The notes beneath the pieces were generated by a model. It saw nothing but the letters and a program-made list of their open reading frames with translations. It was not told the origin of the DNA and searched no databases. From contig JAJSAC010000050.1 in NCBI GenBank assembly GCA_024274915.1, positions 1-56,391 of the forward strand: a DNA stretch of 56,391 nt. Reading direction: 5' to 3'. The position numbers and the translations under genes are program-made. Source of the DNA: Thermodesulfobacteriota bacterium. Lineage in GTDB: Bacteria; Thermosulfidibacterota; Thermosulfidibacteria; Thermosulfidibacterales; B14-G1. Positions 11,057-50,443 of this stretch are shown piece by piece. Position 1 is the stretch's first letter; each line of letters starts with the position of its first letter.

Positions 11057-11151
11057 GGAAGTGGCTGGTGGCTGGTGCTGCCCCCGGACTTCAAATCCGG
11101 TGAGCCTCCCAAAAGGGGGCTGGTGGGTTCGATTCCCACCCACTTCCGCCA
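11057..11151 (+). tRNA. selC: tRNA-Sec (UCA anticodon)
   Basis: This is a 95-base selenocysteine tRNA with encoded CCA. The acceptor stem has eight base pairs (11057-11064 GGAAGTGG with 11140-11147 CCACTTCC) and the discriminator is G11148. The anticodon stem-loop CCGGA-CTTCAAA-TCCGG presents TCA. A long variable arm follows (GAGCCTCCC-AAAA-GGGGGCT region). The T arm is GTGGG-TTCGATT-CCCAC. An 8+5 acceptor/T helix, long variable arm and UCA anticodon together are diagnostic of bacterial tRNA-Sec, which reads UGA through SelB. The genome should therefore encode selenoproteins and selA/selB/selD elsewhere; none is in this window. Confidence 0.96.
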
Positions 11152-40413: not shown

Positions 40414-40421
<8 letters not shown>

Positions 40422-41388
40422 GGACAAGATCCTTGGGGTGGCTCGTAGGGTTATAGCCATAGAAGGGGAGGCCGTCCAAGCCCTCTTGGATCGTATAGAC
40501 GCCTCTTTCATAGAGGCTGTTAGGATCCTTTACCATTGTAAAGGTCGGGTGGTTGTGACTGGTATGGGCAAGTCTGGGATTATAGGACGCAAGATTTCAG
40601 CCACCATGGCTAGCACGGGTACGCCTTCCATTTTTCTCCACCCAGCTGAAGGGAGTCACGGGGATTTGGGAATGGTGGTGAAGGGGGATGTGATACTGGC
40701 TGTCTCTTATAGTGGGGAAACACCAGAGATTTTGGCCCTGCTCCCGGTGATAAAGAGATTAGCCCTTCCCCTCATCTCTTTAACGGGGAAACTTACCTCT
40801 ACCTTGGCCCGAAAGAGCGACGTTGCTTTAGATGTGTCCGTAGCTAAGGAGGCTTCCTTCCTTGAAATGGCTCCTACAGCCAGCACTACAGCAACTCTTG
40901 CCATGGGAGACGCTCTGGCTGTGGCCCTTTTAGAGATGAGAGGTTTCTCTGAGGAGGATTTTGCCCTCCTTCATCCAGGGGGGATCATAGGTAAAAAACT
41001 CCTCCTGAGGGTGGAGGATCTCATGCACACGGGAGAGGAGTTGCCCATGGTTTCCGTACGTACCTCAATGAAGGACGTAATCCTGGAAATTTCTTCCAAA
41101 AGGCTGGGTATCACTACCGTGGTGGACGATGGGGGAGAACTCCGGGGTGTCATTACTGACGGGGACCTAAGGAGAATTCTAGAGAGGCATGGCAAATCCT
41201 TCTTCGAGCTGAGGGCCGGAGAAGTGATGACCAAGAATCCCAAAACCATTGACGGAGATGCCCTGGCGGCTAAGGCATTGCAAAGAATGGAGTTATACTC
41301 CATAACCGCTTTGGTGGTTCCTGATAAATCTGGCAAACCTCAGGGAATCATCCATCTCCATGATCTTTTGAAGGCGGGCATAGTTTAA
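40414..41388 (+). CDS. kdsD: arabinose-5-phosphate isomerase
   Basis: This is a 324-residue KpsF/GutQ-type isomerase that converts ribulose-5-phosphate to arabinose-5-phosphate, the KdsA substrate. An N-terminal SIS domain (VVVTGMGKSGIIGRKISAT, LAVSYSGETPEI, MAPTASTTATLAMGDALA) is followed by two CBS domains (VEDLMHTGEELP, AGEVMTKNPKTI). It completes a kdsB-pyrG-kdsA-kdsD unit supplying CMP-KDO; only KdsC phosphatase is missing. Confidence 0.95.
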
Positions 41389-41752: not shown

Positions 41753-43159
41753 ATGGCTAGATTAGATGTAAGGCATGAAGTCAACATCCCTGTGGTGGTC
41801 AATTCTAGTGAAAGCGAAGTGAGAAGGTTTGATATAACTGCCAAGAACCTAGATCTGATAGGAATAACTCTGCAGGGAAGTGTTCCTCTGGCTGAAGATT
41901 CTTTTGTAAAAGTTAAGGTTAAGCTCCTAGATGAGGTGGTGGAATTGAAGGGTAGGATTGCCAGAAAGGAAAACGGGAGTCTGTACGTGAAGTTTGTGGA
42001 TCTGGATGATCGAAGTAGGGCACATCTCTGGAAGTTTATAAGGAGCGAACAGATAAGTATAGATAGATGCCCATTCTGTGACGGGGAGGTATTTCCAGGT
42101 CAAGAAGTGTGCGGCGAATGTGGTATGTATGTCGATGTCCACAAGGAAAGGTTCATAGAAGAATTTGAAGCTAAGAGGGTATCCGTTTTAGTTGGAAGGA
42201 TAGACGAGGTCACGGAAGAATTCAACAGGGCTATGGAAGACGCTGAACTAAGGCTGTATAAGAAGGAGGATGAGTTAGAACTTCTCAAAGACCTAAGATC
42301 TGTGATAAAGAGAGTGTGTGATATTTGTAGAGATCTGGAGGAAGCAGTTGGTTTAAGAAGCGATTTTGTTAAGAACAGAAGAAGGGTTTTTCAAGAAAGA
42401 ACAGATCGCTTCTTCTCCAAAAGCTATTTTGGCAGCCATGCGAGGGTATGGCCTAAGGGCTATCCCGGAGACTATGAGATACTGGAAAACACCTATAGGA
42501 ATATCCCCCTCTCTACCGGGATAGGGTACATCTTGGACATGTACTACCTTTCAACTACCTTGGCCAACGCTGTTAGGGGAAGACTTGCCACCCTTAGGGA
42601 GCTGTTGAGGTTAGAGCTGGAGAGTAGAAGAGAGCCTAGGGTTTTGGATATAGCGTGCGGTTCTTCTAGGGAATTGTTTGAGCTCGCTCCAGAAATAGGA
42701 AAGTCTGGTGCCAGAATCACTTGCATAGACTTCGACTCGGAGGCTCTTGACTATTCTCTAGGTAGACTGTCCTATACTAACGTGGTGGATCAAATTGATT
42801 TCAGGAAGTATAATGCCCTCAAGATGATAAGCCACTCTAGAAACTTGAGCGAGTTTGGTTCTCAAGATGTGATATACAGCACGGGTCTGTTCGACTATTT
42901 GGGTAACGACATTTTGGTGAAGATGATCAACGCTCTCTACAATTTGCTTAATCCTGGAGGTAAGCTCATCGTTTCCTTTAAAGATTGCAATAGATACAGA
43001 ACTCAGGTGTATCATTGGCTTGTCAACTGGGATGGTTTTTTGCAGAGGACAGGTGAAGAAATACACAGAGTGATAAGGCAGGCAGGTATACCTCAGGACA
43101 GCTTCTCGATTGTGAGGGAAAGCACCGGGGTGATAGTGTTCTATGTGATAAGCAAATGA
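41753..43159 (+). CDS. PilZ / zinc-ribbon / SAM methyltransferase protein, PhcB-like
   Basis: This 468-residue protein has three parts. Residues 1-100 are PilZ-like: RLDVR (3-7) matches the RxxxR c-di-GMP motif, and NLDLIG (32-37) sits where (D/N)xSxxG is expected, with Asp for Ser. Residues 106-123 are a zinc ribbon (C106, C109, C120, C123). Residues 140-215 are helical. The C-terminal part carries KGYPGDYE (235-242) and class I methyltransferase motif I VLDIACGSS (297-305). GYPGDY plus this arrangement is that of the PhcB-like family annotated as extracellular factor (3-hydroxypalmitic acid methyl ester) synthases. It may therefore methylate a fatty-acid-type signal under c-di-GMP control (inference). 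The RBS is GGGAGG. Codon use is A/T-richer than its neighbours. Confidence 0.75.
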   Translation: MARLDVRHEVNIPVVVNSSESEVRRFDITAKNLDLIGITLQGSVPLAEDSFVKVKVKLLDEVVELKGRIARKENGSLYVKFVDLDDRSRAHLWKFIRSEQISIDRCPFCDGEVFPGQEVCGECGMYVDVHKERFIEEFEAKRVSVLVGRIDEVTEEFNRAMEDAELRLYKKEDELELLKDLRSVIKRVCDICRDLEEAVGLRSDFVKNRRRVFQERTDRFFSKSYFGSHARVWPKGYPGDYEILENTYRNIPLSTGIGYILDMYYLSTTLANAVRGRLATLRELLRLELESRREPRVLDIACGSSRELFELAPEIGKSGARITCIDFDSEALDYSLGRLSYTNVVDQIDFRKYNALKMISHSRNLSEFGSQDVIYSTGLFDYLGNDILVKMINALYNLLNPGGKLIVSFKDCNRYRTQVYHWLVNWDGFLQRTGEEIHRVIRQAGIPQDSFSIVRESTGVIVFYVISK

Positions 43160-43192
43160 ATGCATAATGGGGTTCTACACAGCGCTGGCTTT

Positions 43193-43218
43193 GGCCGGTG
43201 CCCTATAGGGTATCGGCC
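43193..43218 (+). terminator. long hairpin between methyltransferase and kinase genes
   Basis: GGCCGGTGCCCTAT and AGGGTATCGGCC fold into a nearly continuous stem of about 12 bp with two G-T pairs and a 2-4-base tip, followed by TTCTCTTCTTT. It probably ends the methyltransferase transcript, since the kinase gene has a promoter just downstream. Confidence 0.6.
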
Positions 43219-43243
43219 TTCTCTTCTTTATGGCCTTTGTTTC

Positions 43244-43272
43244 TTGACATAAGCTGTCGTTTGATTTACTAC
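43244..43272 (+). promoter_or_regulatory. promoter of hybrid kinase gene
   Basis: TTGACA (43244-43249) is followed after 17 bases by TACTAC (43267-43272), the same -10 variant as the murG promoter. It is about 35 bases before the TTG start of the kinase gene. Confidence 0.5.
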
Positions 43273-43307
43273 TCGATAAGTATTACCTATGAGGGAGTAG
43301 GTGGCGG

Positions 43308-45422
43308 TTGTCTAAAAAAGAGTTCATAGAAAGTGAAATAGTTAAACTTAGAAAACAATGGATAAACATTGCGATAATTCTTGCTATATTTGTTTATTTG
43401 TTTCTTTCCCTCCTTGACCGCATCATTGCCCCTAGTGATGTAGGATACTTGCTTGCAGTGAGAGTCTCAATATCAAGTATCCTTGCACTGTTACTTCTCT
43501 TGAATATGAAGACTGACAAGAGGATCCAATACTTCATAGTTATTGCAGGATCTGCGTTGTGCGCAACTGCAGTAGAAGCCATGATAATGAAGCTAGGAGG
43601 ACACACATCTGCTTATTATGCTGGTTTAGGTTTGTTCGCTATAGGTGTTTTAGGCTTTATACCTTTAGGTTTATCTGTAGCTTTGTTAATAGTTTTTATT
43701 GTATATGCTATATACCTTGTGCCTATATTTCTCTATGATCACATCGTGAATTGGGGCATCTTCCTTAGTAATAACGCTTTCCTTATTTCTACTTTCATCG
43801 TAGCCCTTGTATGGAGATATCTCAACCAAAAGAGATTGATAGGAGAGCTCAGCTTACAGTACGATCTCAACCAGGAAAGAGAAAAGTTAAGGCAATATTC
43901 CGATGAGCTAGAGAAACTGGTGGAACAGCGGACTAGAGAGCTCAATAAATCTGAAAGAATGCTTAGGTCTATGTTCGATTATGCCAATGACGGAATATTG
44001 ATAATGGATTCTGAAGGAAAGATAGTAGATGTCAACAAAAGGGCTTGTGAAATTTACGGATTTACCAAAGAGGCTTTGGTAGGGACCAGCATTCATCTCC
44101 TGGAAGCCAAGGGGGATAGGACGTTGTGGGGGGAGCGCTTTAAGCGCCTTTTAAAGGGAGAATCTCTCCTTTTCGAAACAACCCATTACAGAAAAGATGG
44201 CTCCAGTGTGATCTTGGAGGTGAGTGCTAATGCCGTGGAGATAGAGGAAGGTGTGCTTATTCAGGCATTTATAAGAGATATCACAGAGAAGAAAAAGATC
44301 CAGGAGCAGCTCCTCCACTCTCAAAAGATGGAGTCTGTTGTGGTGATGGCGGGAGGATTGGCTCATGATTTTAATAACATGCTGTCCATCATCCTTGGTT
44401 ATACGGAGCTGGCGCTCACTGATGAGGATTTGGGGCTAGAGACTAGGCAAAAACTGGCTAGGGTAGAAAAGTCCGCTAGATCTGCTTCTCAGTTGGTTAG
44501 AAAGCTTTTGAGGTTCTCAAGAAAGGACAAAAGAGGCGAACTTCGGCCCTTCAATTTAAACCACGTTATCCAAGAGACCTTGGATCTGGTGGGCAGGAAT
44601 TTACCTGCCAACATAGAAGTAAAAACTGCTCTCTGCGAAGAAGTTCCCATCGTTGAAGGGGACATAAGCGACATTGAGCAAGTTATAATAAACCTTGTGT
44701 TAAATGCCAAGGATGCCATGCCCAATGGAGGACAGATTGTTGTCAAAACAGAGATCGGCGAGCTTCCTCTCGAGATCATTGAGGTGGAAAAGCTGAAGAA
44801 AGGGAAATATGTCCACTTAAGTGTTTCGGATACAGGTACAGGCATTCCCCCTGAGATCATTTCCCGTATTTTTGAGCCCTTTTTTACCACCAAGGAAAAG
44901 GGAGTGGGAACGGGTCTGGGGTTGGCCATGGTTTACGGCATCGTGAAGGACCACTTTGGGCACATCACCGTTGAGAGTGACCAAGGGAAAGGAGCCACTT
45001 TTCATGTCTATTTACCCTTGATTACTGAGGTTTCTCCTTCCAGTCTGGACGACCTTTCGGAGAGGAGGAGTGGTGGAGAAAACATCCTGGTAGTGGATGA
45101 TGATCCACTGGCTCTGGAGCTTATAAAGGAGGTGCTTCAGGGTAGGGGATACAATGTGATAGCCACTGATAAGCCTCTTCTTGGGGTGAAGCTTTTTAAA
45201 AGCAATTTGAGAAAGATAGACTTGGTGATCACGGATCTTGCCATGCCCTTCATGGACGGGGAGAAGCTTTTGAAGACCATAAAAGAGATGGAGCCAGGGG
45301 CTAAGTTTCTGGTGATCAGTGGATTTTTGGAAGAGTACAAAAGTTTGGAGGCTGATGGGATCTTGAGGAAACCCTTTGATCCAATAGATCTCCTAAGCAT
45401 GGTCAGGGAGATCTTAGATTGA
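43308..45422 (+). CDS. multi-spanning hybrid histidine kinase
   Basis: This 704-residue sensor has domains in order. About six membrane helices span residues 17-170 with short loops and no large periplasmic domain. A coiled coil covers 180-215. A PAS domain lies at about 218-325 ([21 protein letters not shown]). The HisKA phosphoacceptor is His353 ([11 protein letters not shown]), in the HDFNN subtype. The HATPase domain shows [20 protein letters not shown] and [11 protein letters not shown]-terminal receiver has VVDDDP and phosphoacceptor Asp in ITDLAMP. The helical sensor without an external domain suits a lipophilic or membrane-borne signal, as in PhcS/LqsS/CqsS-type quorum sensors. The preceding PhcB-like gene would be a natural ligand source (inference). 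The start is TTG 43308. Confidence 0.88.
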
Positions 45423-49595: not shown

Positions 49596-49775
49596 CTAGA
49601 AGCAAAGTGCAAGGTACAGGTTCGCAGCTTCCTTATAGTCTTTCAAGCTGAGAAAGTCCTCTTTCTGTATACATATGCTTGCTACCTTTGTGTGGTTTGG
49701 ATCTGTGATAATAGGCACATCTGTTTCGCGCATTTTGGAGATAAGATTTTGGTATTTTTTCTGTGTTGATTTTTT
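49596..49775 (-). other. protein-like -1 frame extension of the HD-GYP gene
   Basis: Downstream of two A_AAA_AAT heptamers (minus strand; plus-strand positions 49769-49775 and 49754-49760) the -1 frame stays open to a TAG at 49596-49598. It encodes about 55 residues including NLISKMRETDVPIITDPN, TKVASICIQKEDF and LKDYKEAANLYLALCF. The zero frame instead ends in a low-complexity tail at 49682. The -1 segment has VPII...Y spacing like the C-terminal domain of FlhB/EscU-type export switch proteins, a tentative resemblance. It is either a frameshifted remnant or a programmed-frameshift product. Confidence 0.45.
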
Positions 49776-50443
49776 GGACTTTTCTCTTTATGTAGTGAAC
49801 TTTCCAGCTCATATTTCGAGAAGTATGGTGCCAAGATGTCTATCTCTTTGAGAAACAGCATGGCCAGTTCTGGATCGAACTGTTTACCTTTTTGCCTCTC
49901 AACTTCCTTCATGGTTTCTTCTATGGTTAGTGCTTTCCTGTAGGGTCTGTCTGATAGCATTGCGTCTATTGCATCTGCCACTGCGATTATTCTGGATCCT
50001 AGGGGAATTTCAGGTCCTTTTAGGTTTTTTGGATAGCCTTTTCCGTCGTATCTTTCATGGTGATGTAGTACGTATATGCTTATTCTCTCAAATCCTCTTA
50101 ATTTGCAGAGTATTTTGTACCCTGTTACAGGGTGTTCTTTCATTCTTTCGAACTCCTGAGGGCTGAGCTTCCTCTGTTTTAGTAAGATAAAATCTGGTAA
50201 GGCTACTTTGCCGATGTCGTGTAGGTGACCTGCCAGGTGGATATTTTCGACCTCATGATAGCTCAATCCCAGCAACTCCGCTATCTTTTGGCTGGCGTTT
50301 CCCACTCGAATAGAATGCCCATAGGTGTAGTGATCTCGCATGTCTATTATAGAGCCTATGGCCTCCACTAGATCATGAGCATCGTAGAGGATGGGGTCTT
50401 GTCTAGAGAGCTCAATATTTTTTTCTTTCTCGGTTAGCCCCAT
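49682..50443 (-). CDS. HD-GYP domain phosphodiesterase
   Basis: This 253-residue protein is essentially one HD-GYP domain, the class that hydrolyses c-di-GMP (or related dinucleotides) to GMP/pGpG. It shows DHYTYGHSIRVG, HDIGKVALPD (HD), LHHHERYDGKGYP (the GYP motif) and VADAIDAMLSDRPYRKA. No receiver or sensor domain precedes it. The last about 25 residues after YELESSL are Lys/Asn/Gln-rich and not domain-like. Two slippery A_AAA_AAT heptamers there could shift translation into a protein-like -1 frame. The RBS is AAGGAG. It lies between DUF2325 and DUF3793 genes. Confidence 0.88.
   Translation of the reverse strand: MGLTEKEKNIELSRQDPILYDAHDLVEAIGSIIDMRDHYTYGHSIRVGNASQKIAELLGLSYHEVENIHLAGHLHDIGKVALPDFILLKQRKLSPQEFERMKEHPVTGYKILCKLRGFERISIYVLHHHERYDGKGYPKNLKGPEIPLGSRIIAVADAIDAMLSDRPYRKALTIEETMKEVERQKGKQFDPELAMLFLKEIDILAPYFSKYELESSLHKEKSPKNQHRKNTKILSPKCAKQMCLLSQIQTTQR

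Follow-up and report, generated by a model that had tools for sequence, protein, structure and literature searches.

A candidate acyl-signal methyltransferase and an adjoining six-transmembrane-helix hybrid histidine kinase, distantly related to PhcB/PhcS, in a Thermosulfidibacterota bacterium

Results

Architecture of the two genes

We analyzed a 56,391-nucleotide stretch of DNA (the window), comprising positions 1 to 56,391 of the forward strand of contig JAJSAC010000050.1 (assembly GCA_024274915.1), from a Thermodesulfobacteriota bacterium that GTDB places in the Thermosulfidibacterota. Two co-oriented genes in the window, separated by 148 bp, encode a methyltransferase with an N-terminal PilZ domain and a hybrid histidine kinase with a six-transmembrane-helix (6TM) domain (Table 1). 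PhcB-type enzymes make fatty acid methyl ester quorum signals, which are read by multi-helix kinases such as PhcS, and a sequence-only reading of this DNA had proposed that the two genes are a signal synthase/sensor pair of that type.

Table 1. Features of the methyltransferase-kinase locus (positions are those of the window)
Feature	Position	Strand	Basis or composition
kdsD-type sugar-phosphate isomerase (SIS + CBS), conserved upstream neighbor, closes the Kdo gene block	40414..41388	+	
Putative acyl-signal carboxyl methyltransferase, 468 aa	41753..43159	+	PilZ, Cys4 ribbon, helical linker, class I methyltransferase
PilZ domain, residues 3-97	41759..42043	+	Pfam PF07238, E 1.9e-7, above cut-off
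Four-Cys ribbon, C106-x2-C109-x10-C120-x2-C123	42068..42121	+	Sequence
GYPGDYE-type class I methyltransferase domain, residues 231-468	42443..43156	+	Pfam, structure matches, profile comparison
Terminator-like hairpin between the two genes, 11 bp stem, T-rich tail	43193..43218	+	
6TM-PAS hybrid histidine kinase, 704 aa, TTG start, putative receptor	43308..45422	+	
6TM sensor domain, residues 1-180	43308..43847	+	AlphaFold helices, profile search, fold match, divergence
PAS domain, residues 218-329	43959..44294	+	Pfam
HisKA (HDFNN) + HATPase_c, residues 348-571	44349..45020	+	Pfam
C-terminal receiver domain, residues 593-700	45084..45407	+	Pfam

The first gene had been described as joining an RxxxR-bearing PilZ-like domain, a four-Cys ribbon, and a class I methyltransferase with a GYPGDYE motif, and Pfam and the sequence agree with this description. 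The two PilZ motifs are RLDVR (residues 3 to 7) and NLDLIG (residues 32 to 37), and GYPGDYE occupies residues 236 to 242. In the AlphaFold model (predicted local distance difference test [pLDDT] score of 91), a beta-barrel is followed by a helical linker and a Rossmann-type methyltransferase; the PilZ half is predicted as a barrel (residues 8 to 81) and a helix (residues 86 to 98), in keeping with the domain assignment. Three Pfam families (PF13847, PF13649, and PF08242) scored above cut-off at residues 295 to 444, and no NCBIfam equivalog fits the enzyme. The residues invariant over 35 relatives include G236, G239, D240, R277, D326, Y382, W426, and R432, and a motif survey found the CxxC...CxxC pattern in 11 of 14 full-length relatives. 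The structures closest to the model were small-molecule methyltransferases and 3ocj, a methyltransferase of Bordetella parapertussis that was the top match (Z of 22.1 over 251 residues). This match is restricted to residues 149 to 468, so that the PilZ domain and the ribbon lie outside it, and 3ocj is itself uncharacterized. A relative of the enzyme was present in 20 of the 386 genomes of a broad sample, or about 1 in 20.

Pfam and AlphaFold likewise agree with the earlier description of the second gene as a co-oriented kinase with about six membrane helices, a PAS domain, an HDFNN phosphoacceptor, and a receiver. The model (pLDDT of 90) has six predicted membrane helices within residues 1 to 216. 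As the domain matches are true and the motifs recur in full-length relatives, the features of both genes are not chance.

Relationship to PhcB and PhcS

For comparison, we used a plasmid operon of Paraburkholderia graminis, rather than Ralstonia sequences, as a stand-in for PhcB/PhcS. This operon encodes, in the order B-S-R-Q, a methyltransferase of 468 aa, a kinase of 445 aa, and a pair of response regulators. PhcB has an Arg22 that is conserved in Ralstonia, Cupriavidus, and Paraburkholderia (PMC6989110), and the P. graminis methyltransferase carries the matching Arg22. The phosphoacceptor is His233 in the P. graminis kinase and His230 in PhcS (PMC11960443).

The homology of the window pair to a PhcB-type synthase and a PhcS-type sensor, as originally proposed, was borne out for both genes. 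Alignment of the family profile of the window methyltransferase with the P. graminis PhcB-type protein by hhalign gave a probability of 99.7 and an E value of 7e-26 over 276 columns, and blastp found 27% identity over 252 aa. A 6TM profile made from the window's family and Nitrospirota, without PhcS-like members, found the P. graminis kinase with an E value of 1.7e-22. The same profile also matched a kinase (L040), two cyclases (L039 and L042), and a kinase on a Pseudanabaena plasmid. An hhalign comparison of the N-terminal parts gave no match for a PilZ-like region in PhcB.

A tree built from 91 methyltransferases places the window enzyme with those of Nitrospirota and Desulfobacterota and the PhcB-type protein with L040. 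Judged by sequence, the window enzyme thus is a member of a separate clade of the family and not a PhcB ortholog. What the window locus shares with phcBSRQ of Ralstonia and Cupriavidus is a homologous methyltransferase and a homologous 6TM sensor-kinase module, adjacent and co-oriented. It differs in the separate clade of its methyltransferase, which has clear PilZ and Cys4 domains, in its hybrid kinase with a PAS domain and a fused receiver, in having no separate PhcR and PhcQ response regulator genes, and in belonging to a different phylum. On this evidence, the window pair would work like PhcB/PhcS without orthology. The alpha-hydroxyketone systems CqsA/CqsS and LqsA/LqsS are also similar in pairing a lipophilic signal with a six-membrane-helix histidine kinase that has no periplasmic domain; however, their synthases are pyridoxal phosphate-dependent (PMC10653808 for LqsA), whereas the partner in the window is an S-adenosylmethionine (SAM) methyltransferase.

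Linkage of the two genes across genomes

The two genes are also neighbors in the sister species (identities of 52% and 77%) and in another genus of the family, where they occupy a different genomic place. In a fourth genome, the two halves of the pair sit at contig ends. Among 16 genomes outside the window's own order that have the methyltransferase, 9 show an adjoining multi-helix sensor when the loci are read by eye, two of the sensors being cyclases, and a 6TM profile search confirmed the adjoining sensor in G151, G288, G212, G275, and G223. The linkage that a survey of co-occurrence was meant to look for is therefore kept in the genus, in the family, and in other phyla. The methyltransferase did not fall into an unrelated family, and relatives do show kinase linkage, the two points on which the proposal had been left to stand or fall.

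We also tabulated kinase positions over the 80 named loci nearest the window, a choice that keeps taxon counts among them from serving as a survey; the position statistics omit some loci and include some with spurious open reading frames. Relative to the methyltransferase, a kinase stood at +1 in 37% and at -1 in 17% of the loci. For most positions farther out the figure was 0 to 4%, but it reached 16% at both -2 and +5, and the loci with a kinase at +5 are operons in which acyl genes intervene. At some Omnitrophota, Spirochaetota, and Nitrospirota loci, kinases of a seven-transmembrane-helix type take the place of the 6TM kinase.

A few loci show other arrangements. In G005, from a further family (L014, G005:C27), the kinase ortholog is cut off in its HATPase domain, and the genome yielded no methyltransferase. 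Planctomycetes loci (L087-L112 and others) have a soluble protein of about 1,800 residues with protein kinase, AAA, TPR, GAF, and histidine kinase parts near the methyltransferase, usually divergently oriented. Read by eye, 6TM hybrid kinases without this methyltransferase family adjoin different class I methyltransferases at L146 (G042) and L148 (G064), and at L144 (G381) a 6TM hybrid kinase adjoins a protein that may have PilZ and acyltransferase parts.

Acyl-synthesis context

The Nitrospirota relatives at L059, L061-L063, and L110, which are 39 to 41% identical over the whole methyltransferase, are followed by two ketosynthase genes, as are several others. These loci add genes for a 3-oxoacyl-acyl carrier protein (ACP) reductase, FabZ, and a CrtI-like desaturase in varying combinations, so that the neighbors comprise FabG, FabF, FabF-like, FabZ, and CrtI-like proteins; where the contig extends far enough, the series ends in a 6TM kinase. 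One of the L110 ketosynthases, read by eye, is without catalytic His motifs, which are also lacking in chain-length factors. Elsewhere, methyltransferase domains of the family form the C-terminal part of polyketide synthases or adjoin them. Given these acyl and polyketide neighbors in relatives, the methyltransferase probably acts on an acyl or polyketide acid. Only one FabF-like gene is present in the window genome, which makes it likely that the substrate there comes from primary metabolism.

Individual members of the family occur in further settings. On an Enterobacter ludwigii plasmid (L052), a type I polyketide synthase carries the family methyltransferase region at its C-terminal end. 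A member on a Deinococcus actinosclerus plasmid (L050), annotated as CheR, follows a FeeM-type N-acyl amino acid synthase at a distance of two genes and has a fatty acid desaturase nearby. At L038 (G197), read by eye, the methyltransferase apparently carries a fused patatin-like domain, and a serine/threonine kinase gene adjoins it.

The 6TM domain and its outputs

Cyclase-linked relatives were followed in 97 genomes of the phylum of G275, which gene content suggests to be Bdellovibrionota. The methyltransferase was present in 15 of them, with one locus linked to a polyketide synthase. At 13 of the 14 other loci, the next gene matches the 6TM profile; at the fourteenth (L178), it is a cyclase with a membrane part and no significant match to that profile. 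Pfam identified ten class III cyclases and one histidine kinase among the 14 neighbors. The remaining ones are two close copies of a Pfam-confirmed cyclase, which were not scanned, and a short 6TM-only frame (L172). One 6TM domain thus has swappable outputs, a histidine kinase or a class III adenylate cyclase.

The predicted 6TM fold resembles the membrane domains of mammalian adenylyl cyclases, with the match to AC9 given first here (Z of 18.0 and root mean square deviation of 2.8 over 174 residues) and, less closely, that of Rv1625c (Z of 9.6). In the structure search, cyclases and the diguanylate cyclase ImcA filled the top 11 rows, and the next row scored 9.9; Foldseek E values for this fold are weak taken alone. 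A search of PDB sequences with the 6TM profile gave no significant match to solved cyclases, and Pfam gave no family above cut-off for the window 6TM domain alone, with MASE8 matched weakly in relatives only. The similarity to the 6TM domains of class III adenylyl cyclases (AC5, AC8, AC9, and Rv1625c/Cya) therefore lies in the predicted fold and in the fusion of related 6TM domains to class III cyclases in relatives of the window pair, while the output of the window domain is a histidine kinase and sequence similarity is undetectable. The predicted model points to a shared fold, which is not proof of common descent.

Divergence and composition

Identities between the window and the sister species, each from a single pairwise alignment, differ sharply along the pair. 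The 6TM domain is 52% identical, while the coil, PAS, HisKA, HATPase, and receiver parts are 82 to 94% identical. Identity is 63% for the methyltransferase domain, 34% for the PilZ domain, and 78 to 91% for eight flanking genes; a porin comparison made from an incorrect start is not counted. Fast change limited to the synthase and the sensor domain fits what would be expected of a co-evolving signal and receptor; relaxed constraint is an alternative.

The GC content is 0.44 for the methyltransferase gene and 0.43 for the kinase gene, compared with 0.52 for the window. The sequence-only reading had taken this composition as a hint of transfer. The A/T-richness is real but does not support recent horizontal transfer, because the sister species has the pair at the same place after kdsD and similarly A/T-rich.

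Cyclic di-GMP as a possible input

The RxxxR motif is kept in full-length relatives of the methyltransferase. In the second PilZ motif, (D/N)xSxxG, the window protein has Asp in place of Ser; most relatives have Gly at this position, and three have the canonical Ser. The window genome encodes five GGDEF domains, making cyclic di-GMP (c-di-GMP) plausible as a ligand, and gating of the methyltransferase by c-di-GMP is likewise plausible from these sequence features. A gene with an HD_5 domain and the motif HHERYDGKGYP lies 4 kb downstream on the opposite strand (49682-50443); motifs of this type are found in HD-GYP c-di-GMP phosphodiesterases.

Surroundings of the pair

The terminator-like hairpin in the intergenic gap is possibly an attenuator. 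Overall, the region has no more terminator-like sites than shuffled sequence, and Rfam gave no match at the locus. Upstream lies a 3-deoxy-D-manno-octulosonic acid (Kdo) gene block, read from the open reading frames as kdsB, kdsA, and kdsD, which by its gene content indicates that the organism probably makes lipopolysaccharide (LPS) and has 3-hydroxyacyl-ACP. On the 3' side of the kinase, a gene for a glycogen-debranching-type enzyme and a glycosyltransferase-like gene lie on the opposite strand. The sole tRNA gene of the window, at 11057-11151, is that of a selenocysteine tRNA.

Discussion

We consider it probable that the two window genes encode the synthase and the receptor of a carboxyl-methylated signal derived from a lipid. 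In such a system, the methyltransferase would use SAM to methylate the carboxylate of an acyl or 3-hydroxyacyl compound, or of a polyketide-like one in some relatives, with primary fatty acid and LPS metabolism supplying the substrate in the window organism. The lipophilic product would enter membranes and bind the 6TM domain of the adjoining kinase, altering autophosphorylation at the HDFNN histidine, and the phosphoryl group would pass to the kinase's own receiver and then to an unlinked partner. Synthesis may be gated through the PilZ domain in response to c-di-GMP.

Several observations weigh against this interpretation. The window methyltransferase and the PhcB-type protein fall in different clades, G005 and about 15 further genomes have the 6TM domain but not this methyltransferase, and no sensor adjoins some of the methyltransferases. 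A terminator-like hairpin separates the two genes. A mirror-tree comparison of the methyltransferase and the 6TM domain over 15 genomes was weak and not specific (partial correlation of 0.27). Finally, the gene context would fit an enzyme of structural lipid or pigment synthesis as well.

This last point leads to an alternative in which the methyltransferase tailors a structural lipid, polyene, or pigment. The 6TM kinase would then regulate this product in response to the state of the membrane, with no signal passing between cells. The ketosynthase, ketosynthase-like, ketoreductase, dehydratase, and CrtI-like genes of the Nitrospirota operons do resemble type II polyketide or pigment clusters. 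However, the locus consists of methyltransferase and kinase only in the window, its genus, and its family, and the window genome has but one FabF-like gene. The methyltransferase also stays in place while outputs are exchanged between kinase and cyclase, and fast divergence is limited to the 6TM domain and the synthase. We therefore regard tailoring as unlikely. Still less probable is a CheR-like protein carboxyl methyltransferase that takes c-di-GMP as its input and sets the gain of the kinase, or of some other regulator, by methylating it. The PilZ input domain would suit such a role, and there are weak Pfam matches to CheR (E value of 0.03 in the window and down to 1e-5 in relatives), but these fall short of the cut-off and for the most part span a short stretch. 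Also against it are the closest structures, namely small-molecule methyltransferases and the uncharacterized 3ocj, and the acyl-synthesis genes and polyketide synthase fusions of relatives. That the two are unrelated regulatory genes, neighbors by chance, would accord with a 148-bp gap holding a hairpin and with the G005 kinase that has no methyltransferase. The conservation data already contradict this explanation, which we find scarcely credible: the two genes also lie side by side in two further genomes of the family, one of which has them at another location, and across phyla.

Beyond the synthase/receptor reading of the window pair, the pair may be part of an ancient and modular family of lipid methyl-ester signaling systems that extends across many phyla. 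Its members would share one 6TM receptor domain, coupled to either a histidine kinase or a class III adenylate cyclase. The 6TM domain would then be the bacterial counterpart of cyclase membrane anchors, and the neighboring synthase would supply their missing natural ligand. We put this forward tentatively, leaning slightly against it.

A 2023 survey found the phc cluster only in Betaproteobacteria (PMC10653808), and our literature search, which covered neither subscription papers nor preprints, returned no report of PhcB/PhcS-like pairs beyond that class. With homologous pairs in Nitrospirota, Desulfobacterota, a cyanobacterial plasmid, the window lineage, and others, lipid methyl-ester signaling would have a much wider range. 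The receptor function of cyclase membrane domains has been reviewed as an open question (PMC12414865), and bacterial tests of membrane sensing by cyclases have so far used engineered CqsS chimeras as proof of concept (PMC4821796). The cyclase-linked relatives described here are natural 6TM adenylate cyclases that adjoin a candidate ligand synthase, and through them the question of what cyclase membrane domains sense becomes directly testable.

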